A DNA stretch of 64,000 nucleotides, taken from assembly GCA_009778325.1 (NCBI GenBank), contig WRJZ01000053.1, positions 1 to 64,000 on the forward strand, given 5' to 3'. This DNA comes from Candidatus Endomicrobium neocapritermitis (GTDB lineage: Bacteria > Elusimicrobiota > Endomicrobiia > Endomicrobiales > Endomicrobiaceae). The position numbers and the translations under genes were made by a program. The notes beneath the pieces were generated by a model. The model searched no databases. It had not been told where the DNA came from and was given only the letters and a program-made list of their open reading frames with translations. Every line of letters starts with the position of its first letter. Positions within the stretch are counted from its first letter, which is position 1. Of this stretch, positions 832 to 60,318 are shown in pieces.

Positions 832-960
832 AGAGTGAAGAGTGAAAAGTGAAGAGTGAAGATACGGCAACAGATAATTTGTTGTCATTGCGAGCGGGCA
901 AAGCCAGCGCGGCAATCCAGAGTTGTTATCTTCACTCTCAACTCTTCAATCTCTACTCTG
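832..960. repeat. Heptamer-armed inverted repeat (GAGTGAA type) with TCATTGCGAG core
   Basis: The left arm (832-874) is four or five drifting copies of a GAGTGAA/AAGTGAA heptamer; the right arm (927-960) is the complementary TTCACTC/CTCTTCA series. Between them lies a TCATTGCGAGC...GCGGCAATCC palindromic module (about 893-918). It fills the tuf-rpsJ gap and could fold into a long hairpin in RNA or DNA. Confidence 0.8.
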
Positions 961-3304: not shown

Positions 3305-4141
3305 ATGCCGATTAAAACATTTAAGCCGTACACGCAGTCCAGAAGACAGATGTCCGTTTCGGATTTTTCAGACATAACAAAAACCACTCCGGAAAAATCA
3401 TTAGTATCAATCATAAAAAAATCAGGCGGCCGCAACAATACCGGCCAGGTAATGGTGCGTTTCAGAGGCGGCGGCCATAAAAGATTTTACAGAATGATAG
3501 ACTTCAAAAGGGATAAAATAAATATTCCGGCTGAAGTTATTGCTATTGAATATGATCCGAACCGTTCCAGCAGAATAGCGCTTCTGCAATATCAGGACGG
3601 TGAAAAAAGATATATAATTCAGCCTGTGGGTGTAAAAGTAGGAGACTCGCTTATGTCAGGTCCGGATGCCGAGATAAAAGCGGGAAATGCTCTTCCTATA
3701 ATAAACATTCCCGTAGGTACGTTTATACATAACATCGAACTTGTTCCGGGCAAAGGCGCGCAGATGGTTCGCTCGGCCGGTGCTGCTGCACAGCTTCTTG
3801 CGAAAGAAGGCGACTATGCTCATATAAGAATGCCTTCCGGTGAAATAAGACTTGTTCGGGTAAAATGTTATGCGACGATTGGTCAGGTAGGAAATATTGA
3901 CCATGAAAACATTACGATAGGCTCTGCAGGAAGAAACCGCCATAAGGGATTTAAACCTCATGTCCGCGGAACTGCAATGAACGCTGTCGACCATCCGCAC
4001 GGTGGAGGCAGAGGCAGATCTAAAGGTAATAACCAGCCGAGAAGCCCATGGAACCAGCCTGCGAAAGGTTTTAAAACAAGACCTACAAAGGTTTGGGACT
4101 GGGTTATCGTAAGCCATCGTAATAAAGCAAAGAAGGCGTAG
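3305..4141 (+). CDS. rplB: 50S ribosomal protein L2
   Basis: Core large-subunit protein needed for subunit association and peptidyl-transferase activity. 278 residues. The highly conserved C-terminal signature [19 protein letters not shown] (about residues 227-245, with the functionally important histidine) is intact, as is [17 protein letters not shown] near residue 45. AGGAAG precedes ATG 3305. Confidence 0.98.
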
Positions 4142-4149
4142 TTAAAAAA

Positions 4150-4275
4150 GACAGAGTGTAGATTGAAGAGTGTAGAGTATAGATGTTGTGTTTCGGCGAA
4201 GCCGAAACGTATTTATAGGTTTTCGCTTCGCGAAAACTCTTTATCTAAACTCTAATCTCTAAACTCTAATCTCTG
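4150..4275. repeat. Three-way-junction repeat, copy 1 (GAGTGTA arms)
   Basis: Outer arms of GAGTGTAGA-like heptamers (4150-4185) pair with CTAAACTCTAATCTCT repeats (about 4241-4275). Inside are two perfect 8-bp hairpins: GTTTCGGC-GAA-GCCGAAAC (4190-4208) and GTTTTCGC-TTC-GCGAAAAC (4219-4237), separated by a 10-nt AT-rich linker. Same layout as copies at 19333, 22774, 33450, 34339, 34821 and 43506. Confidence 0.85.
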
Positions 4276-4295
4276 ATGTTAAAAGGGAAATAAAA

Positions 4296-9084: not shown

Positions 9085-9172
9085 CGGCAATTACAAATTA
9101 CGAATGACGAATTACGAATCAACGGCAAAGCCGTCATTGCGAGGAGCGTCGTAGACGCGACGAAGCAATCCA
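9085..9172. repeat. AATTACG heptamer run plus TCATTGCGAGGAGC palindrome
   Basis: 9087-9122 is a run of AATTACA/AATTACG/AATGACG/AATTACG/AATCAACGG heptamers. It is followed by CCGTCATTGCGAGGAGCGTC...GACGCGACGAAGCAATCC, a palindromic repeat of a kind seen in many bacterial genomes. The complementary heptamer arm is absent, so this looks like a half-element. Confidence 0.7.
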
Positions 9173-9766: not shown

Positions 9767-9872
9767 ACGGCAGAAGCTTAGAAGTTTGGAAGCTCGGAAG
9801 TTCGGCAACGGCAAAAGGCTTTAACGACCGGAGCTGCTCCGAACTTCTGAGCATCCGAGCTCTCCGAGCTTC
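9767..9872. repeat. GGAAGTT-armed repeat with conserved core
   Basis: Left arm 9767-9803 (GAAGTTTGGAAGCTCGGAAG) pairs with right arm 9841-9872 (GAACTTCTGAGC, CCGAGCTCTCCGAGCTTC). The core 9804-9840 reads GGCAACGGCAAAAGGCTTT then AACGACCGGAGCTGCTCC and is shared with the elements at 5085, 11393, 13717, 18193, 40840, 48043 and 60220. Confidence 0.8.
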
Positions 9873-10247: not shown

Positions 10248-10395
10248 AGACAGAGTTAAAAGTAAAGAGTGGAGAGTGAAGATACGGCAATGCTCGAGTC
10301 TGCCATTCCCGCAAGGTTTAATCGGGAATCCGTTTTAACTAAAAATAGCGGCTTCGCCGCACGATAATTATAAATTGTTAATTATTAATTGTAGT
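10248..10395. repeat. Composite intergenic repeat
   Basis: A GAGTGGAGAGTGAAGATACGGCAA half-arm (about 10250-10290) is followed by a CATTCCCGC...CGGGAATCC palindrome (10303-10331), a GCGGCTTCGCCGC hairpin (10348-10360) and an AATTATAAATTGTTAATTATTAATTG run. Three repeat classes appear stacked here without the matching right arm. Confidence 0.6.
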
Positions 10396-10409
10396 TTTAG
10401 GAGGATCAG

Positions 10410-11359: not shown

Positions 11360-11474
11360 GCGGAAGTTTTGAGGTTTGGAAGCTTGGAAGTTTTGCAAAA
11401 ACAAAGATAACGTCAAAGACAAAACGACCATAGTTCCTCTAAACTTCTAAACATCCAAGCCTCTAAGCTTCTAA
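11359..11474. repeat. GGAAGTT-armed repeat with conserved core
   Basis: Left arm 11359-11392 (GAGGTTTGGAAGCTTGGAAG) pairs with right arm 11441-11474 (AAACTTCTAAACATCCAAGC, CTCTAAGCTTC). The core 11393-11440 contains AAAGACAAAACGACC and AGTTCCTCT, an A-rich variant of the shared core. Confidence 0.75.
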
Positions 11475-11487
11475 ATAGGAATACAAT

Positions 11488-12899: not shown

Positions 12900-12971
12900 A
12901 TTGAATCTAAAACGCGCGCGTATTGATTCGTGATATACCTCACTACGCACCGCGTTTGTTGCTGTTTTAAA

Positions 12972-13057
12972 GACAGATAATAGAGTACAGAGAAGAGAGA
13001 ATAGATACGACAGCAAAAAATTATTATCTTTTCTCTATTATCTATTCTCTGTCTTGA
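12972..13057. repeat. AGAGAAT-type heptamer inverted repeat
   Basis: Left arm 12972-13006 (AGATAAT, AGAGTAC, AGAGAAG, AGAGAAT, AGATA) pairs with right arm 13022-13057 (TTATCTTTTCTCTATTATCT, ATTCTCTGTCTTG). The loop is only about 15 nt. The perfect 7-nt step is especially clear here. Confidence 0.75.
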
Positions 13058-13070
13058 AAAAAGGATTTTT

Positions 13071-13700
13071 ATGAATTATATATTATTCGGGCCTCCCGGA
13101 GCAGGTAAAGGCACACAGGCTAAAAGAATCGTTGAAAAATACGGAATCGTTCATTTGTCTACGGGAGATATGTTCAGGGAAGCTAAAAAAAGCGATGAAA
13201 AAATAAGCGCTTTGATGGCTTCCGGAAAGCTTATACCCGACGAAACAGTTGTTGAAATGGTGCAGAAGCGTCTTCAAAAAGACGATGTTAAAAAGGGTTT
13301 CCTTTTAGACGGTTTCCCGAGAACTCTGAACCAGGCGGCGGCTCTTGATGAAATGCTTAAAAAAGAAAATATAAAAATAGACGCTGTCTTTTCGATATAT
13401 ATAGATAATGATGAAGCCGTAAAAAGAATTTCAGGCAGAAGAGTCTGCGCTTGCGGCGAAAGTTATCATATGCATTTTTTGCCGCCTAAAAAAGAAAATG
13501 TCTGCAATGCCTGCGGCGGAGCGCTTGTGCAGAGAAGCGATGATAAAGAAAATGTAGTCATAGACAGACTGACTGTTTATGAAAATCAGACAAAACCGTT
13601 GATAGATTATTATAAAAAAGCGGGAATACTCGTAGAAATAAACGGACAGCAAAACGAAAAAGAAGTTTTTAAACAAATAGAAAAGAAGATAAGAGGTTGA
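13071..13700 (+). CDS. adk: Adenylate kinase (cysteine lid)
   Basis: Interconverts ATP + AMP and 2 ADP in the cytoplasm. 209 residues. P-loop [14 protein letters not shown] (residues 7-20), NMP-binding HLSTGDMFR and [10 protein letters not shown] are intact. The LID carries a cysteine cluster, VCACGESYH and NVCNACGG (about residues 123-150). The first pair is C-x-C instead of the usual C-x2-C of zinc-lid enzymes, so metal binding may be altered. AAAAGGA precedes ATG 13071. Standard position after secY. Confidence 0.97.
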
Positions 13701-13785
13701 GAAGGTAAGAAGTTGAGAGGAGCTGTGGTCGTTAAAGTCTTTGCCGTTGCTCAGCTTCTCAGCTTCCCAACTTCCCATCTTCTGC
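13687..13785. repeat. GAAG-armed repeat (reverse orientation) overlapping the adk end and abutting map
   Basis: Left arm 13687-13716 (AAGATAAGAGGTTGAGAAGG, TAAGAAGTTGAG) pairs with right arm 13750-13785 (CTCAGCTTCTCAGCTTCCCA, ACTTCCCATCTTC). The core, in reverse complement, reads CAACGGCAAAGACTTTAACG then ACCACAGCTCCTCTC (13717-13752). It contributes the last codons of adk (KKIRG) and lies just before the map start. Confidence 0.8.
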
Positions 13786-15514: not shown

Positions 15515-15570
15515 CAGAGTGAAAAGTGAAGATAAAACGAACAAAAGCAGTATCTCAACTCTTCACTCTG
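15515..15570. repeat. Minimal GAGTGAA inverted repeat
   Basis: CAGAGTGAAAAGTGAAGATA (15515-15534) and TATCTCAACTCTTCACTCTG (15551-15570) are near-perfect complements around a 16-nt loop, the shortest full-arm example in the window. Confidence 0.8.
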
Positions 15571-18155: not shown

Positions 18156-18272
18156 ACGGCAGAAGTTCGGAAGTTTGGCAGCTCGGAAGTTCGGTAAAGA
18201 CAAAGGCAATGTCAAAGACAAAACAACCAAAGCTCCTCTGAGCTGCCAAGCTTCCAAGCTCTCTGAGCTTCT
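18156..18272. repeat. GGAAGTT-armed repeat with conserved core
   Basis: Left arm 18156-18192 (GAAGTTCGGAAGTTTGGCAG) pairs with right arm 18241-18272 (AGCTGCCAAGCTTCCAAGCT). The core 18193-18240 contains AAAGACAAAACAACC and AGCTCCTC. It separates the ribosomal cluster from mreB. Confidence 0.75.
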
Positions 18273-19317: not shown

Positions 19318-19332
19318 GAATACTATTTTCAG

Positions 19333-19457
19333 GGTGAAGTGTGAAGTTTGAAGAGTGAAGTTGTTGTGTTTCGCCTTCGGCGAAACTTATTTTAGGTTTT
19401 TGCTTCGCAAAAACACATTAACTCCACACTCCACACTCCAAACTTCTAACTGTCCTA
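19333..19457. repeat. Three-way-junction repeat, copy 2 (GTGAAGT arms)
   Basis: Outer arms GTGAAGTGTGAAGTTTGAAG (about 19333-19362) and CTCCACACTCCACACTCCAA (about 19421-19450) are complementary. Inner hairpins: GTTTCGCC-TTC-GGCGAAAC (19368-19386) and GTTTTTGC-TTC-GCAAAAAC (19396-19414), with a 9-nt AT linker between. Confidence 0.85.
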
Positions 19458-20801: not shown

Positions 20802-20916
20802 GGCAATTACGAATGACGAATCAAAGACAAAACAAAAAAATAATTACAGATTACAATTTATTCGTAATTGCCGTTGTCGTTCGCTGTTGATTCGTCATTC
20901 GTAATTCGTAATTGTC
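20802..20916. repeat. AATTACG-armed inverted repeat
   Basis: GCAATTACGAATGACGAATC (20802-20822) pairs with GATTCGTCATTCGTAATTCG (20889-20908 and beyond). A second inner pair, AATTACAGATTACAATTTAT against ATTCGTAATTG, lies in the loop, which also holds AAAGACAAAAC like the class II core. Confidence 0.7.
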
Positions 20917-22755: not shown

Positions 22756-22773
22756 TAATCTTAGTCGGTTATT

Positions 22774-22890
22774 AATGATAAATGGTTAACGGTTAATGGT
22801 TAATGAAGGAGCGCGCGAAGTGCGCCTGTTAATAAGCGGGGCTTTGCCCCGCACAACAATTTATCATTTATCGTTAACCATTAATCATTG
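22774..22890. repeat. Three-way-junction repeat, copy 3 (GGTTAAT arms)
   Basis: Outer arms: AATGATAAATGGTTAACGGT plus TAATGGTTAATGA (22774-22806) pair with ATCATTTATCGTTAACCATT plus AATCATTG (about 22861-22890). Hairpin 1 GCGC...GCGC (22811-22825), 10-nt linker, hairpin 2 GCGGGG-CTTTG-CCCCGC (22836-22852). Same core layout as copy 1 with wholly different stem sequences. Confidence 0.85.
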
Positions 22891-24258: not shown

Positions 24259-24326
24259 CTGCAATTACGAATTACGAATGACGAATTACGAATCAACGGC
24301 AAAATGAAAAGTTCAAAAAGGATAAC

Positions 24327-26826: not shown

Positions 26827-27438
26827 ATGTCGGAAATTACGAATATAAAAAACGGAACATGGATAAAACCTCCTGAAAAATTCATTTTAGGCGAAGACAG
26901 CGTCAAAATAACTACAAATCCGAATACCGGTTTCTGGCAGAAAACATATTGCGGTTTAAAAAATGATAATGCCCATGCTTTTGTTTTTGAAACTTATGAA
27001 AAATACTTTTCTTTTTACGCAAAAGTTAAATTTGATTATAAAAAACGTTTTGACCAATGCGGCGTTGTCATATATCAAAACAGCAATAATTGGTTTAAAG
27101 CTTCTGCTGAATATGAAAATGAAAAAATACAAAAACTCTGCAGCGTTGTAACAAATAACGGCTTTTCGGATTTAGCTTCGCAGGATATTAACGCTGACAT
27201 AAAAGAGCTGTACTTCCGTTTAAGCCGAAGGCATAATGATTTTCTTACGGAGTGGTCAAAAGACGGAAAAGAGTTTTATCGGATGAGAATGTTTCATTTG
27301 TTTCAGGGGTGTAAAAAAGTAAGTTTCGGAATATACGCGTCAAGTCCTTTGGATTCTTCGTTTGAAGCGGAGTTTTCAAATATGCGGCTTACCGAATGTG
27401 TTTGGGAAGAATATAGAACGGCAATTACAAATTACTAA
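26827..27438 (+). CDS. DUF1349 family protein
   Basis: 203 residues; beta-sandwich DUF1349 (concanavalin-like) by recognition of NPNTGFWQKTYCG, DQCGVVIYQNSNNWFKASAE and the C-terminal FGIYASSPLDSSFEAEFSNM. Function unknown; possibly carbohydrate-related. No signal peptide. ATG 26827 follows the hydrolase by 16 nt. The last seven residues (RTAITNY) and stop are encoded by the start of an AATTACG repeat, so the native C-terminus has been replaced. Confidence 0.8.
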   Translation: MSEITNIKNGTWIKPPEKFILGEDSVKITTNPNTGFWQKTYCGLKNDNAHAFVFETYEKYFSFYAKVKFDYKKRFDQCGVVIYQNSNNWFKASAEYENEKIQKLCSVVTNNGFSDLASQDINADIKELYFRLSRRHNDFLTEWSKDGKEFYRMRMFHLFQGCKKVSFGIYASSPLDSSFEAEFSNMRLTECVWEEYRTAITNY

Positions 27439-27490
27439 GTACGAATTACGAATCAAAGGCAGAGCGGCAATTAACAAATAACAACCGGAG
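27419..27490. repeat. AATTACG heptamer run entering the DUF1349 3' end
   Basis: CGGCAATTACAAATTACTAA followed by GTACGAATTACGAATCAAAG and GGCAATTAACAAATAACAAC. The first copy supplies the stop codon of the upstream gene. No long complementary arm is present. Confidence 0.65.
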
Positions 27491-28506: not shown

Positions 28507-30783
28507 ATGAAAATGAACGGCAATTACGAATTACGAATGACGAATTATGAATCAACGGCAATTCCTCACCCTCTTGCTTCGCAAGAAGAGGCAAGGGAAA
28601 ATACTTTTTTGTCTTTGATTCGTAATTCGTCATTCGTAATTCGTAATTGCCGTTTACTCGCTTTAGCCCTGTTCCTGAGCGCGCAATGTTTCATTTCCGA
28701 TGTTTATGCGGGAAATCCATGGCCGAATGATCCTGATTTTTTAGTTGGTGTTGCGGGTCATCCAGGCAATCCAGTCTATCCATCCACAACTTTTACAGGA
28801 TATGGGCATGGTGATGCGGATATAGAAAAACAGATTCACCTGTTAGCTGAGATGGGTGCAAAAATTTACCGATTGGACTCTAATCCTCCCATAGACCAGT
28901 TGGAAAAGATAATCACACTTTGTGAAAAATACGGTATTGAACTTCTGCTGATCACCGGCGGTACCCCTTCAAGCGTAGTGAGATGGTTTAAAGGAAGAGT
29001 CAAATACTATCAGGTGGGTAACGAGATGAATCTTCAGGCGCAAAAATCTGGCAATGGAACTCAGATAAGCCATTACTGGATGTCGACAGATACAGAACCT
29101 CTGCCTGCGGATAAGAAATATTTGGATGTCATGATCAGCAACACCATCCAAACCATCAAGATAATTCGCGCGGATGATCCGGACGTGAAGATCCTGATCA
29201 ATGGAACAGGTGTACATTACGCTTTTCTTGATTATGCTTTTGAGGAATTTGCGAAAGCGGGCGTTGACATCGACCTTATCGGCTGGGACTGGTATTCCTT
29301 TATGGAAAACAACAGGACAACCCATTCTTCCGCCATAGACGGCTTGAACAGTGTCGCAAAATTTATGTATGACCGTTACGGTAAGGATATTATAATTTGC
29401 GAATACAATATGGCTCCTTCTTACTTTGATATGGTGCAGCTTAATCCGCAGCATATTCCATTTCTTCCCGGAAACGGAAACGGTATAATGGACCTTTTCG
29501 AAGAAAATAATATGGATATATTAGTGGGACCCTATTTGGTCAATAATATTCAATATTTGTATAAGAATAGAGGTGAAAATCATATTAAAGGTATTATGAT
29601 TTATGAGCTCATGGAGCAGCCGGGTCACCTCAGCCAGTGGGAAGCAAAATACGGCATAACATATGCCAAAATGCTCAATCTTAGTCAAAGACGCTATCAG
29701 ATATTGGGGCCAAAAGCAGCGTATTACCATGTCCAAAAACTCCTCGGCGGCGGTTTTGTGCCGATACAAAGATTGAATCCTTCCGTGGTAATTCCCGAAC
29801 ATACGATAACAGCGTCAGTTATAGACGAGGACACAGACGGCACAGTTCTGTCCTCGCAAGCAGGCGGCACAGTTACCGGAAGCGGTATATACCGAGAAAA
29901 CTCTGTTGTTACACTGGCAGCTGCCGCCAAACCCGGATACGAATTTCTGGGCTGGTACAGAGGCGGAATAAGAATCAGTAAAAATCCTGTTTATAAATTT
30001 ACAGCTTATGAAGACGCCAGCAATGCCGACAGAGATAGCGCCGAAGGAAAGTTTGCGTATGAAGCAAGGTATGTTTTCAGGGGCGCTTATGAAGGAGCAG
30101 TAATAACATTTCCGGTAATATCAAAAGACGGCGCTCAAAGCACCGGAATGCTGACAGTGCCTGCAAAAACATTCAGCGCGAATGTGGAAATCGATGTGAA
30201 ACAGTACAGCAAATTCATTTTAGCGCCTGCGGAATCGTATGTGAGAGAATTAAGTCATACGAATATAGGTGCGATTATAAACGCGCAGGGCAAGCCGGAA
30301 AAGGAGATGGAGCTGAAAATACCGTATAACAATTCGGACATAACCGGAATGAACGAAGACACTTTGGTGATATCAAGATATGATGAAGAAAAACAGGTAT
30401 GGGTTCCGTTAAAGTCAAAAGTGGACAGTAATAACAAACAGATAATAGCCTATATAGATAAAGTATCGATATATGCCATAATGGGAACGGCAAATGCGCT
30501 AAAAGCGTTTGAGAATATGAGATATTATCCGAATCCGCTGCAGCCGTCAAAGGGACTGAATTATTCAAAGATGAATTTTGCGAATATGCCGCCGGGAACA
30601 CACATAAAGATATACACAATGTTGGGACAAGTAGTACGAGACTTAGAAGCAGACGCAAGCGGAATGGCAGTTTGGGACGGAAAAAATAATGCAGGCGAAA
30701 AAGCTGCAAGCGGAGTGTATATAATATACATGAAAGACAGGAACGGAAATAAAAAGAGAATAAAAATAGCAGTGGAAAGATAA
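28507..30783 (+). CDS. Large secreted glycoside-hydrolase-like protein (clan GH-A type) with InlB-like and FlgD-like domains
   Basis: 758 residues as read from ATG 28507. Probable order: repeat-encoded N-terminus (1-46), hydrophobic signal core LLALALFLSAQ (about 50-60), a TIM-barrel-like region (70-430) with YYQVGNEMN (candidate acid/base E173) and DIIICEYN (candidate nucleophile E299), an InlB B-repeat-like segment (GYEFLGWYRGGI, about 475), a beta domain, and a C-terminal FlgD/sorting-type Ig domain (YPNPLQPSKG, then GVYIIYMKDRNG). TTG 28609 with AAGGG 11 nt upstream is an alternative start giving a compact signal peptide. Substrate unknown. Confidence 0.72.
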   Translation: MKMNGNYELRMTNYESTAIPHPLASQEEARENTFLSLIRNSSFVIRNCRLLALALFLSAQCFISDVYAGNPWPNDPDFLVGVAGHPGNPVYPSTTFTGYGHGDADIEKQIHLLAEMGAKIYRLDSNPPIDQLEKIITLCEKYGIELLLITGGTPSSVVRWFKGRVKYYQVGNEMNLQAQKSGNGTQISHYWMSTDTEPLPADKKYLDVMISNTIQTIKIIRADDPDVKILINGTGVHYAFLDYAFEEFAKAGVDIDLIGWDWYSFMENNRTTHSSAIDGLNSVAKFMYDRYGKDIIICEYNMAPSYFDMVQLNPQHIPFLPGNGNGIMDLFEENNMDILVGPYLVNNIQYLYKNRGENHIKGIMIYELMEQPGHLSQWEAKYGITYAKMLNLSQRRYQILGPKAAYYHVQKLLGGGFVPIQRLNPSVVIPEHTITASVIDEDTDGTVLSSQAGGTVTGSGIYRENSVVTLAAAAKPGYEFLGWYRGGIRISKNPVYKFTAYEDASNADRDSAEGKFAYEARYVFRGAYEGAVITFPVISKDGAQSTGMLTVPAKTFSANVEIDVKQYSKFILAPAESYVRELSHTNIGAIINAQGKPEKEMELKIPYNNSDITGMNEDTLVISRYDEEKQVWVPLKSKVDSNNKQIIAYIDKVSIYAIMGTANALKAFENMRYYPNPLQPSKGLNYSKMNFANMPPGTHIKIYTMLGQVVRDLEADASGMAVWDGKNNAGEKAASGVYIIYMKDRNGNKKRIKIAVER
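28515..28655. repeat. AATTACG-armed inverted repeat inside the 5' end of a gene
   Basis: GAACGGCAATTACGAATTAC (from 28515) through GAATCAACGG pairs with TGATTCGTAATTCGTCATTC and GTAATTCGTAATTGCCGTT (ending about 28655). The loop holds CCTCACCCTCTTGCTTCGCA and AGAAGAGGCAAGGG, another repeat module. The whole element lies within the reading frame of the secreted protein. Confidence 0.85.
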
Positions 30784-30900
30784 ACGGCAATTACTAATTA
30801 CGAATTACGAATCAACGGCGAACGACAAAAGCAATTACGAATTAACGGCAGCGAAAGGTGAAAGATCGGCAGTTCAGCAGCTCGGCAACGGCAAGGGCTT
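30784..30900. repeat. Tandem AATTACG and GGCAGCTCGG repeat debris
   Basis: CGGCAATTACTAATTACGAA, TTACGAATCAACGGCGAACG, GCAATTACGAATTAACGGCA and then GGCAGTTCAGCAGCTCGGCA followed by ACGGCAAGGGCTTTAA. Half-arms of two classes lie side by side without right arms. The remaining 30901-31050 holds nothing I can assign. Confidence 0.6.
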
Positions 30901-33449: not shown

Positions 33450-33586
33450 GGCAATTAATAATGATAAATGGTTAACGGTTAATGGTTAATTGCGGAGTGC
33501 GCGAAGTGCACCTATTTAATAAGCGAGGCAAAGCCTCGCACAATAATTTATCATTTATCATCAACCATTTATCATTATTAATTGCC
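33450..33586. repeat. Three-way-junction repeat, copy 4 (GGTTAAT arms)
   Basis: Left arm GGCAATTAATAATGATAAAT plus GGTTAACGGTTAATGGTTAA (33450-33489); right arm TTTATCATTTATCATCAACC then ATTTATCATTATTAATTGCC (33547-33586). Hairpin 1 GTGC...GTGCAC (about 33497-33511), 11-nt linker, hairpin 2 GCGAGGC-AAA-GCCTCGC (33523-33539). It accounts for most of the 306-nt gap 33365-33671; 33587-33671 shows no other feature. Confidence 0.85.
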
Positions 33587-33671
33587 GTTTTTGCTTTTTC
33601 AGCCAATAAAACTTATAATAAAGACAAATCTCTAATCTTCAAACTCCATACTGCAGTTAAAAGGATATTTA

Positions 33672-34334: not shown

Positions 34335-34338
34335 AAAT

Positions 34339-34467
34339 GGCAATTAATAATTAACAAATAACAATGAATAATGTCGGAGTTTCGCGAAAGCGAAACCTAA
34401 TTAATAAGTTTTTGCTTCGCAAAAACACAATAATTGTTACTTATTATTTGTTAATTGTTAATTGCCG
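34339..34467. repeat. Three-way-junction repeat, copy 5 (AATTAACAAATAAC arms)
   Basis: Left arm GGCAATTAATAATTAACAAA then TAACAATGAATAATG (34339-34373); right arm ATTGTTACTTATTATTTGTT then AATTGTTAATTGCC (34433-34467). Hairpin 1 GTTTCGC-GAAA-GCGAAAC (34379-34396), 11-nt linker, hairpin 2 GTTTTTGC-TTC-GCAAAAAC (34408-34426, identical to copy 2). Confidence 0.88.
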
Positions 34468-34820: not shown

Positions 34821-34944
34821 ATTGTAAATGATAAATGGTTAACGGTTAATGGTTAATTGCGGAGTGCGCGAAGCGCACCTATTAATAAGCGAGGCAAAGC
34901 CTCGCACAATAATTTATCATTAACCATTTATCATTGTTAATTGT
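34821..34944. repeat. Three-way-junction repeat, copy 6 (GGTTAAT arms)
   Basis: Left arm GTAAATGATAAATGGTTAAC then GGTTAATGGTTAAT (34821-34857); right arm AATTTATCATTAACCATTTA then TCATTGTTAATTGTC (34908-34944). Hairpin 1 GTGCGC-GAA-GCGCAC (34864-34878, perfect), 10-nt linker, hairpin 2 GCGAGGC-AAA-GCCTCGC (34889-34905, identical to copy 4). Confidence 0.88.
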
Positions 34945-36697: not shown

Positions 36698-36782
36698 GCG
36701 GAAGATAAGATGATAGGATGATAAGAGGATAAGAAAAACAAGGTTTGTGAACTTGTCTTCATAACTTCCTATCATCTTCTTA
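36698..36782. repeat. GATAAGATGATAGG-armed inverted repeat
   Basis: GGCGGAAGATAAGATGATAG plus GATGATAAGAGGATAAG (36698-36733) pairs with CTTCCTATCATCTTCTTACA (about 36765-36784) and ATAACTTCC; the loop is about 25 nt. The arm is made of GATAAGA/TGATAGG heptamers. Confidence 0.65.
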
Positions 36783-43503: not shown

Positions 43504-43505
43504 AG

Positions 43506-43631
43506 GCAGAGTGAAGAGTGGAGAGTGAAAAGTGGAGATATTGAATTTCGGAGAAGCCGAAATCTAATTAATAGGTTTTCGCATAGCGAAAACACTTTAT
43601 CTCCACTCTCCACTCTTCAATCTTCACTCTG
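43506..43631. repeat. Three-way-junction repeat, copy 7 (GAGTGAA arms)
   Basis: Left arm GCAGAGTGAAGAGTGGAGAG then TGAAAAGTGGAGATA (43506-43540); right arm TATCTCCACTCTCCACTCTT then CAATCTTCACTCTG (43598-43631). Hairpin 1 ATTTCGG-AGAAG-CCGAAAT (43545-43563), 11-nt linker, hairpin 2 GTTTTCGC-ATA-GCGAAAAC (43575-43593). The changed G-to-A and C-to-T ends of hairpin 1 are compensatory relative to copy 1. Confidence 0.88.
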
Positions 43632-45105: not shown

Positions 45106-46410
45106 ATGGGCAAAGACGATTTTTTACCCGCTGCCGGGACAAGAGATATAGAACCTGTACAGGCTGAAATAAGAAGCGGAGTTATTGATAAAATAGCGTC
45201 AAGTTATAAAAAATACGGTTTTAATTCCATAGAAACGCCAGCTATTGAAAAACTTGAAAATCTGACCGGAAAAAAAGGCGGAGAAAACGAGAAGCTGATT
45301 TTTAAGATACTCAAACGCGGTGAAGAATTAAAAGAAGCTTTGAAAGAAAGCAGTGAAGAAAACAATATTGCGGATTTCGGGCTTCGCTATGACCTTACGG
45401 TTCCTCTCGCGCGCTATTACGCGCATTATAAAGATAAACTCCCGAAACCATTTAAAGTTTTTCAGATAGGAAATGTGTGGCGTGCTGAAAGACAGCAAAA
45501 ATCAAGATACAGGCAGTTCACGCAATGCGACATAGATATTATAGGGGACCCTACGCCAAACTGCGAAATAGAATTAATTTATGTGACGTGCAAAACTTTG
45601 AATGAACTTGGAATTAAGAACTTTGAAATAAGAATAAATGACAGGCAGATACTTAAAAAAATAAGCAAAGACTGCGGCATAAATGACGACGATAAATACA
45701 GGGATTTTCTTATAGCTTTGGATAAATTGGATAAAAAATCTCTTGACGATATTATTGAAGAATTGAGAAAGAAAAATTTTGAAGAATCAGTTCTTGCAAA
45801 TATCAAAAGGGTTTTCGAAAATCTGAAAGAAGGAAAAACCAATATAGATTTATCCGGGGAAAATGAATCTGAAACCGAAGACGCAAAGTATTATAAAGCC
45901 TGCAGAGATTTAAGTACAATAATCAGCTCCGTTAAAAGTTTAACGGATGACGTTAATATAAGATTTGACCCAATGTTAGTGCGCGGTATGGATTATTATA
46001 CCGGCGCGATTTACGAAGTTAACGAAATAAACGGGAATCTCTCTTTCGGCGGCGGCGGGCGTTATGATAATATGATAGGCGGTTTTTCCGGTCATGATGT
46101 TTCCGCCTGCGGATTTTCGTTAGGATTTGAGAGAGTAATCGACGCGTTTTTTTCAGGTTCCGAAGCGGCGCAAAACAGCGGTTTGAAAAAAGCCGCTTTA
46201 TTATATGATTCCGAAAAGGATAATTATTCGGATATAGCTGTTTTGTCGGAAGATTTAAGAAAAGAGTATGATGTCGTCTCAATTTTTGCCCGCCAAAAAA
46301 ATATGTCAAACCAGCTGGAAAAACTTAAAAACATCGGATTTACCCACTGGGGTATTTTTAAAGGTCCTGAAACGGCAATTAACAAATTACAATTAACAAA
46401 TAACAAATAA
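45106..46410 (+). CDS. hisS: Histidyl-tRNA synthetase with repeat-encoded C-terminus
   Basis: Charges tRNA-His. 434 residues. Class II motif 2 region WRAERQQKSRYRQFTQCDID (about 125-144), RYDLTVPLARYYAH, the His-specific LVRGMDYYTGAIYEV and motif 3 SLGFERVIDAF are present, followed by the anticodon-binding domain. Its last residues (ETAINKLQLTNNK) come from an AATTAAC repeat run that also supplies the stop codon, so the native C-terminus is altered. ATG 45106 lacks a strong Shine-Dalgarno. A bidirectional terminator follows. Confidence 0.94.
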   Translation: MGKDDFLPAAGTRDIEPVQAEIRSGVIDKIASSYKKYGFNSIETPAIEKLENLTGKKGGENEKLIFKILKRGEELKEALKESSEENNIADFGLRYDLTVPLARYYAHYKDKLPKPFKVFQIGNVWRAERQQKSRYRQFTQCDIDIIGDPTPNCEIELIYVTCKTLNELGIKNFEIRINDRQILKKISKDCGINDDDKYRDFLIALDKLDKKSLDDIIEELRKKNFEESVLANIKRVFENLKEGKTNIDLSGENESETEDAKYYKACRDLSTIISSVKSLTDDVNIRFDPMLVRGMDYYTGAIYEVNEINGNLSFGGGGRYDNMIGGFSGHDVSACGFSLGFERVIDAFFSGSEAAQNSGLKKAALLYDSEKDNYSDIAVLSEDLRKEYDVVSIFARQKNMSNQLEKLKNIGFTHWGIFKGPETAINKLQLTNNK

Positions 46411-46425
46411 GACAAATACCTCGCA

Positions 46426-46472
46426 AAAGGCAAAAAAGACAGCACGAAAATCGCGCTGTCTTTTTTGCCTTT
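46426..46472. terminator. Bidirectional terminator between hisS and the citrate synthase gene
   Basis: Perfect 18-bp stem AAAGGCAAAAAAGACAGC (46426-46443) with GCTGTCTTTTTTGCCTTT (46455-46472), 11-nt loop. The A/T-rich outer stem gives U-tracts in both directions, suited to two converging genes. Confidence 0.85.
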
Positions 46473-46517
46473 GCTATGTCCAATTATTATTTATTAATTG
46501 TTAATTATTAATTGCCT

Positions 46518-47891
46518 TTACGCGTATTGAGATAAATATTTCTTTGCAAGTTCCATCATTTCCGCGTGAGTCATTGACGTTGTTCTTCCGTTTTTAAACA
46601 ATTCGTCAATATCTTCTTTTATCTTTAATACCGCGGGATTGTTTTTATCAAGCTTTTCTTCTTTTTCCTTAAGCCCCGGCATTTGCGTGTTAATCCAGAA
46701 AGCTATCCCGGCAAGCCCTGCTCTGTCGGTTATTTCAACTTCCGGCGGCCTGTTAAGAATCGACTGAGTGTCAAACACATTATAAATTTCCTGCTCTTTT
46801 AAAAGACCGTCAGCGTGAATGCCCGCTTTTGTCATATTAAAATTTGCTCCGACAAAAGGCTGGTTTTTCGGAATATCATAGTTGAGTTCTCTTTTGAAAT
46901 AATCGGCAATTTCGGTAATTGCCGACAAATCCATACCGTTTGTGGTTCCTCTTAAAGATACATATTCGATAGCCAAAGCTTCGACCGGAGTGTTTCCCGT
47001 TCTTTCGCCTATTCCTAAAAGAGAACCGTTTATTGACGAACAGCCGTAAAGCCACGCGGCTGTTGAATTGCTGAGCGCTCTGTAAAAATCATTGTGTCCG
47101 TGCCATTCAATGCATTCCGAAGGCACTCCCGCGTGATGCGTGAGTCCGAACATTATTCCGTTTACGTTTCTCGGCATTGCGGCTCCCGGATAACTTACTC
47201 CGAAACCCAATGTGTCGCATGCTCTTATTTTTACGGGTATTTTTGCTTCCTTTGAAAGTTTCATAAGTTCTACGGCGAAAGGAACGACAAAACCGTAAAA
47301 ATCGGCTCTTGTTATATCTTCAAAATGACAGCGTGGAAGAATTCCTTCGGCAAGAGCGGCTTTAACTATGTCCAAATACATTTCCAAAGCTTGCCTGCGG
47401 GTTTTTTTGAGTTTTAAAAATATGTGGTAATCCGAGCAGGAAGTTAAAATTCCGGTTTCTTTAAGCCCCATTTCTTTAACAAGTTTAAAGTCTTCCTTAT
47501 TTGCTCTTATCCATGAAGTTATTTGCGGAAATTCATATCCTTTTTCCTGACATTTTCTTACGGCTTCTTTATCTTTGTCGGAATAAAGAAAAAATTCCGT
47601 CTGTTTAATTATGCCGTTAGGCCCTCCGAGTTTATGCATCAAATCGTACAGATCGGCTATTTGGTCCGCGGTAAACGGATCCATTGCCTGCTGCCCGTCG
47701 CGGAACGTTGTGTCCGTGATCCAAATGTCATCCGGGACATTCATAGGCACTACCATATTATTGAACCCTATTTTCGGGATTTCGGTGTACTGAAAAGTCT
47801 CCCTGAAAAGATTTGGTTCCTTCACATCTTGAAGCTCGTAATGATACTCTTCCGGCTCAAGAATGTTTTTCTTCTTGTTGAAAGTAAGCAT
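46518..47891 (-). CDS. Re-citrate synthase-like protein (isopropylmalate/homocitrate synthase family)
   Basis: 457 residues from the ATG at 47891 (GGGAGG 5 nt upstream; an overlapping GTG at 47897 is less likely). A DRE-TIM metallolyase: ITDTTFRDGQQAMDPFTADQ (about 58-77) holds the catalytic Arg-Asp, and IEWHGHNDFYRALSNSTAAW the metal HxH. The sequence KLGGPNGIIKQTEFFLYSDK matches the group containing the Re-face citrate synthase of anaerobic clostridia rather than LeuA. It would make citrate from acetyl-CoA and oxaloacetate for glutamate synthesis. Homocitrate synthase activity is the alternative. Confidence 0.78.
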   Translation of the reverse strand: MLTFNKKKNILEPEEYHYELQDVKEPNLFRETFQYTEIPKIGFNNMVVPMNVPDDIWITDTTFRDGQQAMDPFTADQIADLYDLMHKLGGPNGIIKQTEFFLYSDKDKEAVRKCQEKGYEFPQITSWIRANKEDFKLVKEMGLKETGILTSCSDYHIFLKLKKTRRQALEMYLDIVKAALAEGILPRCHFEDITRADFYGFVVPFAVELMKLSKEAKIPVKIRACDTLGFGVSYPGAAMPRNVNGIMFGLTHHAGVPSECIEWHGHNDFYRALSNSTAAWLYGCSSINGSLLGIGERTGNTPVEALAIEYVSLRGTTNGMDLSAITEIADYFKRELNYDIPKNQPFVGANFNMTKAGIHADGLLKEQEIYNVFDTQSILNRPPEVEITDRAGLAGIAFWINTQMPGLKEKEEKLDKNNPAVLKIKEDIDELFKNGRTTSMTHAEMMELAKKYLSQYA

Positions 47892-54043: not shown

Positions 54044-54054
54044 CATACAAATAG

Positions 54055-54136
54055 CAGAGTGAAGAGTGAAAAGTGAAGAGTTAAAAGGCTTTTAGCCTTT
54101 CTTTAACTCCACTCTTCACACTCCAATCTCCACTCT
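54055..54136. repeat. GAGTGAA-armed inverted repeat
   Basis: GCAGAGTGAAGAGTGAAAAG then TGAAGAGTTAAA (54055-54084) pairs with TTTAACTCCACTCTTCACAC then TCCAATCTCCACTCTT (54101-54136). The loop is a small AAGGCTTTTAGCCTT hairpin. Between the tRNA and dnaX it could act as an attenuator or processing site. Confidence 0.8.
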
Positions 54137-57571: not shown

Positions 57572-57728
57572 AGGCAATTACAAATTACGAATTACGAATT
57601 ACGAATCAACGGCAAAAGACAAAAAGGCAATTAAGAATAAACAAATAAAAGCCATCCTCTTATAAATGTGTATAAATTGTAGTTAAGTAGTTGTAGTTGA
57701 TTAGTAATTAGTAATTTGTAATTGTCGT
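57572..57728. repeat. AATTACG-armed inverted repeat
   Basis: GGCAATTACAAATTACGAAT then TACGAATTACGAATCAACGG (57572-57612) faces GTTGATTAGTAATTAGTAAT then TTGTAATTGTC (57695-57727). The loop (about 80 nt) contains GGCAATTAAGAATAAACAAA and is not obviously structured. Confidence 0.65.
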
Positions 57729-60185: not shown

Positions 60186-60301
60186 GACAGAAGTTGAGAA
60201 GTTGGGAAGCTGGGAAGTTGAGCAAAGACAAAGGCAACGAAAAAGACAAAACGACCACAGCTCCTCTCAGCTTCCCAACTTCTCAGCTCTCTAAACTTCT
60301 A
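60186..60301. repeat. GAAGTT-armed repeat with conserved core
   Basis: Left arm 60186-60219 (CAGAAGTTGAGAAGTTGGGA, AGCTGGGAAGTTG) pairs with right arm 60269-60301 (CAGCTTCCCAACTTCTCAGC, TCTCTAAACTTCT). The core 60220-60268 contains AAAGACAAAACGACCACAGC and CTCCTC. Confidence 0.8.
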
Positions 60302-60318
60302 AAATGGAGAATTATAAC

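Follow-up and report, generated by a model that had tools for sequence, protein, structure and literature searches.

The window, by which is meant the whole stretch of 64,000 nucleotides of Candidatus Endomicrobium neocapritermitis DNA analysed here, carries at positions 831 to 960 two runs of the heptamer GAGTGAA that face one another in inverted orientation, and paired arms built in the same manner from other words recur along its length. The question raised by this locus is what sort of element has arms of this kind, and how the two arms come to resemble each other. The analysis covered 1.50 Mb of the 2.38 Mb, 54-contig genome (G000), of which the window is contig C53, together with 0.51 Mb of a genome from the same genus (G001) and parts of G003, G004, G014 and G023. 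Gene positions derive from simple ORF calls. Genes in the window are approximately 66–88% identical at the DNA level to those of the Endomicrobia MAGs WRNH01 and WQUP01, and the first element-bearing gaps are located in the S10/spc ribosomal protein region. The Endomicrobia genomes that were compared are MAGs or drafts, in which repeats may be misassembled in places, although the same unit profile recurs in separately assembled genomes.

Periodic arrays and their inverted arrangement

Seven-nucleotide periodicity in intergenic DNA, as proposed in the first-pass annotation of the window, was borne out by counts of self-matching stretches in the window and in the 1.50 Mb. Within the window, 26 period-7 stretches passed a threshold of 17/21 self-matches, compared with 0.33 in Markov-1 shuffles, and other periods were close to zero with the exception of 8 (7 stretches) and 14 (9 stretches). 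Across the 1.50 Mb, 208 period-7, 33 period-8 and 25 period-14 arrays were identified, the simulated number being 0 for each; the period-14 signal fits alternating unit variants. The arrays represent about 46 canonical heptamers, led by AATTACG, GAGTGAA, AATTAAC/AATTGTT-type words, GTTAATA, GTTAGTA and GAGTTCA, and 27 octamers, GAAG(T/C)T(G/C)(G/A) and GATGCAGG among them. When neighbouring arrays within 300 bp of each other were considered, 99/107 were inverted with a common unit, and the units differed by at most one base in 86/107 (shuffled mean 15.8, maximum 25). The full detection pipeline returned 217 inverted elements with complementary arms, roughly 100–150 bases as a rule and about 80–270 bp overall, as opposed to 1 in a Markov-1 simulated genome, which upholds the further claim that the heptamers are built into inverted repeats.

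The element at 831–960 consists of a GAGTGAA-family left arm (831–862), a core containing a ATTGCGAG-type palindrome (886–917) and a right arm (929–959). GAGTGAA arms also enclose a two-hairpin core at 43505–43631, flank a short hairpin instead of such a core at 54053–54133, and delimit a short element at 15515–15570. AATTACG arms are found at 20802–20915, at 28515–28656, where they are near perfect and each contains an AATGACG variant unit, and at 57572–57725, where an AATTACG left arm faces an AATTACT/AATTACA right arm, i.e. unlike variants of one word. GGTTAAT arms with two-hairpin cores are present at 22773–22889, 33450–33590 and 34825–34937, and AGAGAAT/AGATAAT arms at 12961–13063. Convergent heptamers were accordingly confirmed for most of the arms listed previously, namely those at 832, 15515, 43506 and 54055 (GAGTGAA), 20802, 28515 and 57572 (AATTACG), 22774, 33450 and 34821 (GGTTAAT) and 12972 (AGAGAAT), but not for two others. 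The array at 36698, earlier taken as the heptamer GATAAGA, has a period of 8 and belongs to an octamer-armed element (GATAAGAT; 36698–36776), while the AATTACG arm at 9085 is a solo arm on the plus strand (9085–9121) with no inverted partner, beside a ATTGCGAG palindrome at about 9135–9172. The ATTGCGAG...CAATC palindromes at 886–917 and 9135–9172 are thus situated inside or beside arm elements.

Two-hairpin cores are also associated with GAGTGTA/GAGATTA-type arms at 4139–4278, GTGTGGA/GAGTTTG-type arms at 19331–19452 and AATTAAC arms at 34335–34466, and AATTAAC/AATAATT arms flank a terminator-like hairpin at 46370–46519. Octamer-armed elements occupy 9772–9870 (GAAGYTYG units), 11362–11475, 13683–13783, 18159–18270 and 60189–60302 (GAAGTTGG units). 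Five elements were folded as single-stranded DNA, yielding z values from -5.2 to -13.3 (831–960, -5.2; 28515–28656, -13.3; 33450–33590, -7.4; 43505–43631, -11.1; 60189–60302, -5.2). The earlier proposal that both arms always carry the same heptamer fails for a chimera at about 10252–10400, which has a GAGTGAA-type left arm and an AATTAA(T/C) right arm, and for a comparable chimera at L018:6139. Solo AATTACG arms with no matching partner start at 9085, 24263, 27423 and 30789, and in the 1.50 Mb 69/118 AATTACG arrays have no partner of at least three units within 220 bp. Those at 24263–24296, 27423–27460 and 30789–30900 are followed by AAMGRC-rich sequence.

Composition and divergence of arms and cores

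The number of units per arm is narrowly distributed. Although arrays range from three to six units, 82/92 GAGTGAA and 84/118 AATTACG arrays have four, and the modal periodic length is 31 nt (45/92 and 80/118, respectively), with a minor class of 24 nt (one unit less) and rare arms of 38 nt; octamer arms are most often 33–35 nt long, a smaller group measuring 25 nt. Relative to the core, GAGTGAA arms converge in 72 cases and diverge in 0, the corresponding values for AATTACG being 49 and 0, and the few diverging neighbour arrays are confined to A/T-rich words. The sequence immediately outside an arm is often AACGGC or AAAGAC. In many families a hexamer of this type (AACGGC, AAAGAC, AACTGC or AACGAC) borders the arms on the inside also, and it varies by two-state changes as the heptamers do.

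The space between the arms is filled by a two-hairpin core, a ATTGCGAG-type palindrome, a single hairpin or an AAMGRC-rich spacer. The two-hairpin core, comprising a hairpin, a spacer of 9–11 nt such as CTATTAATAG and a second hairpin, is present in 63/217 elements. A search for this core that was blind to the arms recovered 64 examples: 54 are flanked by periodic sequence on both sides, 10 on one side and 0 on neither, against a background of 2%. Since arms that lack the core are common, these data indicate that the core depends on the arms and not the reverse, and insertion of the core as an independent unit without arms was rejected on the same count (0/64). One two-hairpin core type is associated with GAGTGAA, AATTAAC, GTTAATA, GTTAGTA, GAGTTCA and GTGTGGA arms and, among 91 element pairs with cores at least 85% identical, the arm family differs in 33 and matches in 58. 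The heptamers can therefore be regarded as interchangeable, as had been suggested from the window. In the gap at 831–960 the palindrome is present in the G000 element and absent from the G003 element, which suggests nesting of the palindrome at this site.

Within the GAGTGAA-family unit, positions 2, 4 and 7 are fixed at 97–100%, and positions 1 (G/A), 3 (G/T), 5 (G/T) and 6 (A/G) are mainly two-state, giving the motif RAKTKRA. The AATTACG unit is fixed at AAT.A and variable at positions 4 and 7, and other families behave alike. The same position profile, with similar frequencies, is evident in G001, G003 and the WRNH/WQUP MAGs from termite-gut Endomicrobia. Two-state positions within a unit are mostly independent, although in G000 2/6 pairs of positions are short of double changes (p 0.007 and 0.028, uncorrected). 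The suggestion that the arms of a pair are homogenised together was not sustained for the GAGTGAA family. In GAGTGAA elements with two four-unit arms, 25/108 in-register units are identical, shuffled elements giving an expectation of 29.6. In unit composition, too, the two arms of an element resemble each other no more than arms of different elements do (p 0.94). Arms of the AATTACG and GAAGCTCG families, conversely, resemble each other more closely when they belong to the same element, and nine AATTACG elements have perfect arms; this similarity in cis may reflect copying in cis, or younger subfamilies or subfamily structure.

Arms and cores were compared in GAGTGAA pairs whose cores differ by 10% or less. 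In these pairs the cores differ at 84/1253 sites (6.7%) and the arms at 205/1365 (15.0%), the latter being near the 15.8% observed between random pairs of the family. All but three of the arm differences (202/205) fall at positions 1, 3, 5 and 6, with 0 at positions 2 or 4. Expressed per site, fixed positions differ at 0.5%, cores at 6.7% and two-state positions at 26% (Fisher p 3e-11 and 1e-32, values that are too small because the compared pairs share members), such that the fixed arm positions are conserved about 13 times above the cores. The elements at the unrelated loci L064:10677 and L082:7454, for example, have 44-nt cores with 0 differences and arms that differ at 8/56 positions, and several octamer pairs have 0/31 core differences with 6 to 11 arm differences in 56 to 64. 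Either the arms are quickly reshuffled or rewritten, or homogenisation or later insertion has affected the cores. That some unit positions are frozen and the two-state ones reshuffled, with the core changing more slowly than the latter, presents a concrete puzzle.

Genomic placement and distribution

Most elements are intergenic, 13/217 being situated inside an ORF call. In co-directional gaps they stand a median of 4 nt behind the stop codon and 20 nt ahead of the next start. Elements are distributed among co-directional, divergent and convergent gaps in the numbers 157/25/21 (n=203), and all gaps in the numbers 535/76/82 (n=693); the 203 elements are neither enriched in convergent gaps nor depleted in divergent ones. 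Such proportional use of the gap types is consistent with insertion wherever a gap tolerates it, and not with a function as terminators or operon-specific regulators. When arm mismatches were read in the sense of transcription, there was no preference for G-U over A-C (156 vs 173), and RNA-level selection on pairing was rejected for this reason.

Occupancy of orthologous gaps differs between related genomes. The S10-region gaps that hold elements in G000 (at 4127, 9070, 9750 and 11345) measure only 9–24 bp in G004, and G003, G001, G014 and G023 often bear other arm words in the same gap. In G003 the gap orthologous to that of 4139–4278 holds a core of the same type between GTGTGGA-type arms, and in G004 it is 17 bp. 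Similarly, at 11362–11475 G001 has GAAGATGG-type octamer arms and G004 just 12 bp; at 13683–13783 G003 has AATTAAT heptamer arms and G004 and G014 have no element; and at 18159–18270 GAGTGAA-type heptamer elements are present in G003 and G001, the gap being empty in G014. Among 135 syntenic gaps of G000 and G001, 9 are occupied in both, 16 in G000 only, 13 in G001 only and 97 in neither, with unlike arm words in 9/9 of the shared occupied gaps. Occupancy is associated between the two genomes when all gaps are considered (odds 4.2, p 0.006), but not clearly in gaps of at least 60 nt (p 0.17), so that a slot conserved by descent is at most possible. At one site with flanks about 86% identical and the outer TGCCGTTAAACGGCGCA conserved, WRNH01 (L224) has GAGTGAA arms and a two-hairpin core, and G000 (L064) has AATTACG arms and another core. 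These comparisons of orthologous and empty sites were made at approximately 80–88% DNA identity, which is too distant for target-site duplications and for setting element ends to the base. At the level of the genus, AATTACG and GAGTGRA arrays abound in G000, G001 and G003, and neither occurs in G002 or G004; elsewhere their distribution is patchy.

Inverted GAGTGRA arms spaced 40–70 nt apart were also detected in 40 stretches of species genomes. The carriers include Acidobacteria, Prevotellaceae and other Bacteroidales (among them Xylanibacter rodentium strain PROD), Clostridiales, Pirellulales, Chloroflexi and Endomicrobia; the cores differ, and unit number is more variable in Bacteroidota and Acidobacteria. 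In six Prevotellaceae stretches (L207, L210, L216, L217, L225 and L229) the GAGTGAA arm is followed by a AATTTGCT(A/T)CCGC-like sequence, with its complement before the right arm, and this AATTTGCT-CCGC sequence is a possible subterminal signal.

Inverted AATTACG arms were found in 8 viral-contig stretches, several having AATGACG as third unit, and no viral contig had inverted GAGTGRA arms. One AATTACG element lies in frame within a Mu gp16-like prophage gene (L253:5921-6000, minus strand), at a point occupied in related genes by a short linker. In that frame the standard unit would introduce a TAA stop, which the variant unit TCTCAATTC in the right arm of this element avoids. Another AATTACG element is common to three prophage contigs at an orthologous site (L253:3660-3730, L250:631-705 and L255:3320-3398), with 131/132 arm bases identical, cores matching at 9/10 and 7/10 positions and flanks 65–79% identical. 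Either the arms are strongly kept, or insertion has occurred repeatedly at one site, or the element has been exchanged between phages; conservation of the arms despite diverged flanks fits a recognised sequence.

Nature of the elements and relation to known systems

The reading that we favour, and to which we would give roughly an even chance, is that these are small, non-coding, fold-back mobile elements of MITE-like type, the degenerate fourfold arms of which serve as recognition sites acting in trans. They are short and non-coding, with terminal inverted repeats and many dispersed copies (217), as MITEs are, and identical or nearly identical asymmetric cores recur at unrelated loci. They exhibit dispersal, differences in presence between related species, a fixed unit number, convergence and degenerate constraint, with arms that outpace the cores in variation at two-state positions and lag behind them at fixed ones. 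An element would comprise two convergent arms (about 31 nt for heptamers, 33–35 nt for octamers) of four units each, placed around an optional and exchangeable core. The fourfold unit would be recognised by a trans-acting protein, perhaps a transposase or its partner, that holds unit length, unit number and the fixed positions constant while accepting either base elsewhere. New copies would presumably insert where they are least harmful, in the space from a stop codon to the ribosome-binding site that follows, and different words may mark different specificities. The differing words, together with arms that reshuffle faster than the middle, point to an unusual and widespread small mobile DNA as opposed to ordinary slippage. 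A recognition site accounts for the fixed positions, but not for the fast reshuffling of two-state positions or its rapid equilibrium, and the many words that coexist in one genome would require many specificities or a tolerant enzyme. A further idea, which we consider quite improbable, is that the arms are rewritten four units at a time from a degenerate 7- or 8-nt template whenever an element is made or repaired; this would yield a fixed unit number, fixed positions conserved above the core, and largely independent choices at two-state positions, neighbouring bases included.

The mechanism put forward in the first-pass annotation was slippage plus conversion, or hairpin-primed copying, with STRR-like arrays growing and shrinking by polymerase slippage while copying between arms keeps them alike. 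Arm lengths do step by whole units (24, 31 and 38 nt), and the closer resemblance within AATTACG and GAAGCTCG elements, nine of the former being perfect, agrees with this idea. However, such pairwise processes predict a variable unit number and matching variants, neither of which is seen in the GAGTGAA family, where most arms are held at exactly four units and identity between arms equals that of shuffled elements; AATTACG arms are mostly held at four also, and species that share an occupied gap differ there in both arms and in the core. Consequently the mechanism was not supported and is improbable. An unlikely alternative envisages old armed slots and mobile cores, in which two-hairpin, ATTGCGAG and other cores insert or swap by conversion and look younger than the arms around them. 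Elhai and colleagues reportedly described a parallel in 2008, in the form of small dispersed repeats within Nostoc heptamer arrays. Close cores with different arm words, arms that commonly lack a two-hairpin core that itself never occurs without arms, and the palindrome confined to the G000 element at 831 would all follow. Against this, the presence of arm pairs varies from species to species, as does the word at a given gap, close cores tend to share their arm family (58/91 pairs), and mere age gives no 13-fold conservation of fixed arm positions over cores.

Tight placement between stop and start codons and good folding would suit a function at the RNA level, in which a transcribed hairpin would terminate or attenuate transcription or stabilise the mRNA, and selection on the RNA would maintain its pairing. 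This is very improbable given the unbiased G-U and A-C counts and the proportional use of convergent and divergent gaps, and RNA pairing needs neither four units nor a 7- or 8-nt periodicity. Equally doubtful is movement as REPIN-like elements by RAYT (Y1) transposases, even though the two-hairpin core resembles a REP doublet and three Y1 transposase genes were found in G000, one of which (L115) lies about 40 bp downstream of an AATTACG element that is near perfect. The other two have no arm element at their ends and are flanked or bordered by GTCAAGGGGACG sequences instead. These genes (L116:1077-1929 and L114:1410-2235) have GTCAAGGGGACG(G/T)AG(G/T)A(G/A)TTGACA-like ends, inverted on both sides in L116, which appear to be terminal repeats belonging to the Y1 genes and to have no relation to the arm elements. 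No GTAG-like tag is conserved before the hairpins, the tetranucleotides there being TTGT, TTGA, CGGA, ATGA and others. Within the genus, Y1 transposases are confined to G000 and G001; none was found in G003 (70% complete), and G023 carries an element of this build with no Y1_Tnp match, a distribution that does not fit dependence on a RAYT. A retroelement origin (retron, DGR or group II) was rejected also, there being no RVT_1 match in G000–G004. The search for an autonomous partner of the mobile elements favoured here, which covered Y1_Tnp and RVT_1, found none.

For decades, heptamer arrays have been reported from unrelated bacteria and explained species by species in terms of slippage, regulation or quadruplexes. 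Terminal inverted repeats made of short tandem units are a feature of eukaryotic fold-back transposons (Drosophila FB, Galileo), which are much longer and have no known relation to the present elements. Like REPINs and GTAG REPs with their RAYTs, the elements are small, intergenic, inverted, hairpin-forming, dispersed and non-autonomous (PMC3116915, PMC3733652), but they have no GTAG tag, periodic arms replace the conserved REP palindromes, and Y1 genes are not always present. BrickBuilt of Porphyromonas gingivalis is likewise an intergenic MITE associated with tandem repeats, although its tandem 23-mers are inside and its inverted ends are short (PMC4596501), whereas here the inverted ends are themselves the tandem repeats. 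The TAACTGA arrays of Beggiatoaceae, direct, intergenic and mostly just upstream of start codons, with one indirect repeat in the genome, share with cyanobacterial STRRs and the present arrays the intergenic tandem heptamers, the related variant units and a patchy occurrence across phyla (PMC4679880). No core and no paired arms are reported for them, both of which are present here, and of the features of STRRs the intergenic tandem heptamers were found and a slippage-variable unit number was not. The non-subscription literature that was searched included no genome with many interchangeable words on shared cores and no relevant report quoting the arm sequences themselves.

The closest published case is the GGGAATC heptamer of Xanthomonas, which is mostly intergenic and close behind the upstream gene, has four units in the majority of arrays, forms inverted repeats from 70 and 75 convergent pairs, and is degenerate (GGGANTN); its long repeats differ between related species, its arrays have 2–26 units, and it was interpreted as G-quadruplex DNA (PMC4692102, 2015). 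Convergent heptamer arrays of mostly four units with degenerate positions are thus common to both systems. In Xanthomonas, however, a single G-rich word is involved, whereas here there are more than ten words, mostly not G-rich and in arrays of 3–6 units, as well as octamer versions, shared cores and a measured evolution of arms against cores. AATTACG, GTTAATA and AATTAAC have no G-tracts and are not quadruplex-capable units, and so the four-unit convergent build is not due to quadruplexes alone. One build, with four units, convergent arms and a degenerate unit, is seen here with many words in a single genome, and the words recur in several phyla, which suggests that arrays of this kind belong to one widespread class of small mobile elements, for which four units in each of two converging arms is offered as a search rule.
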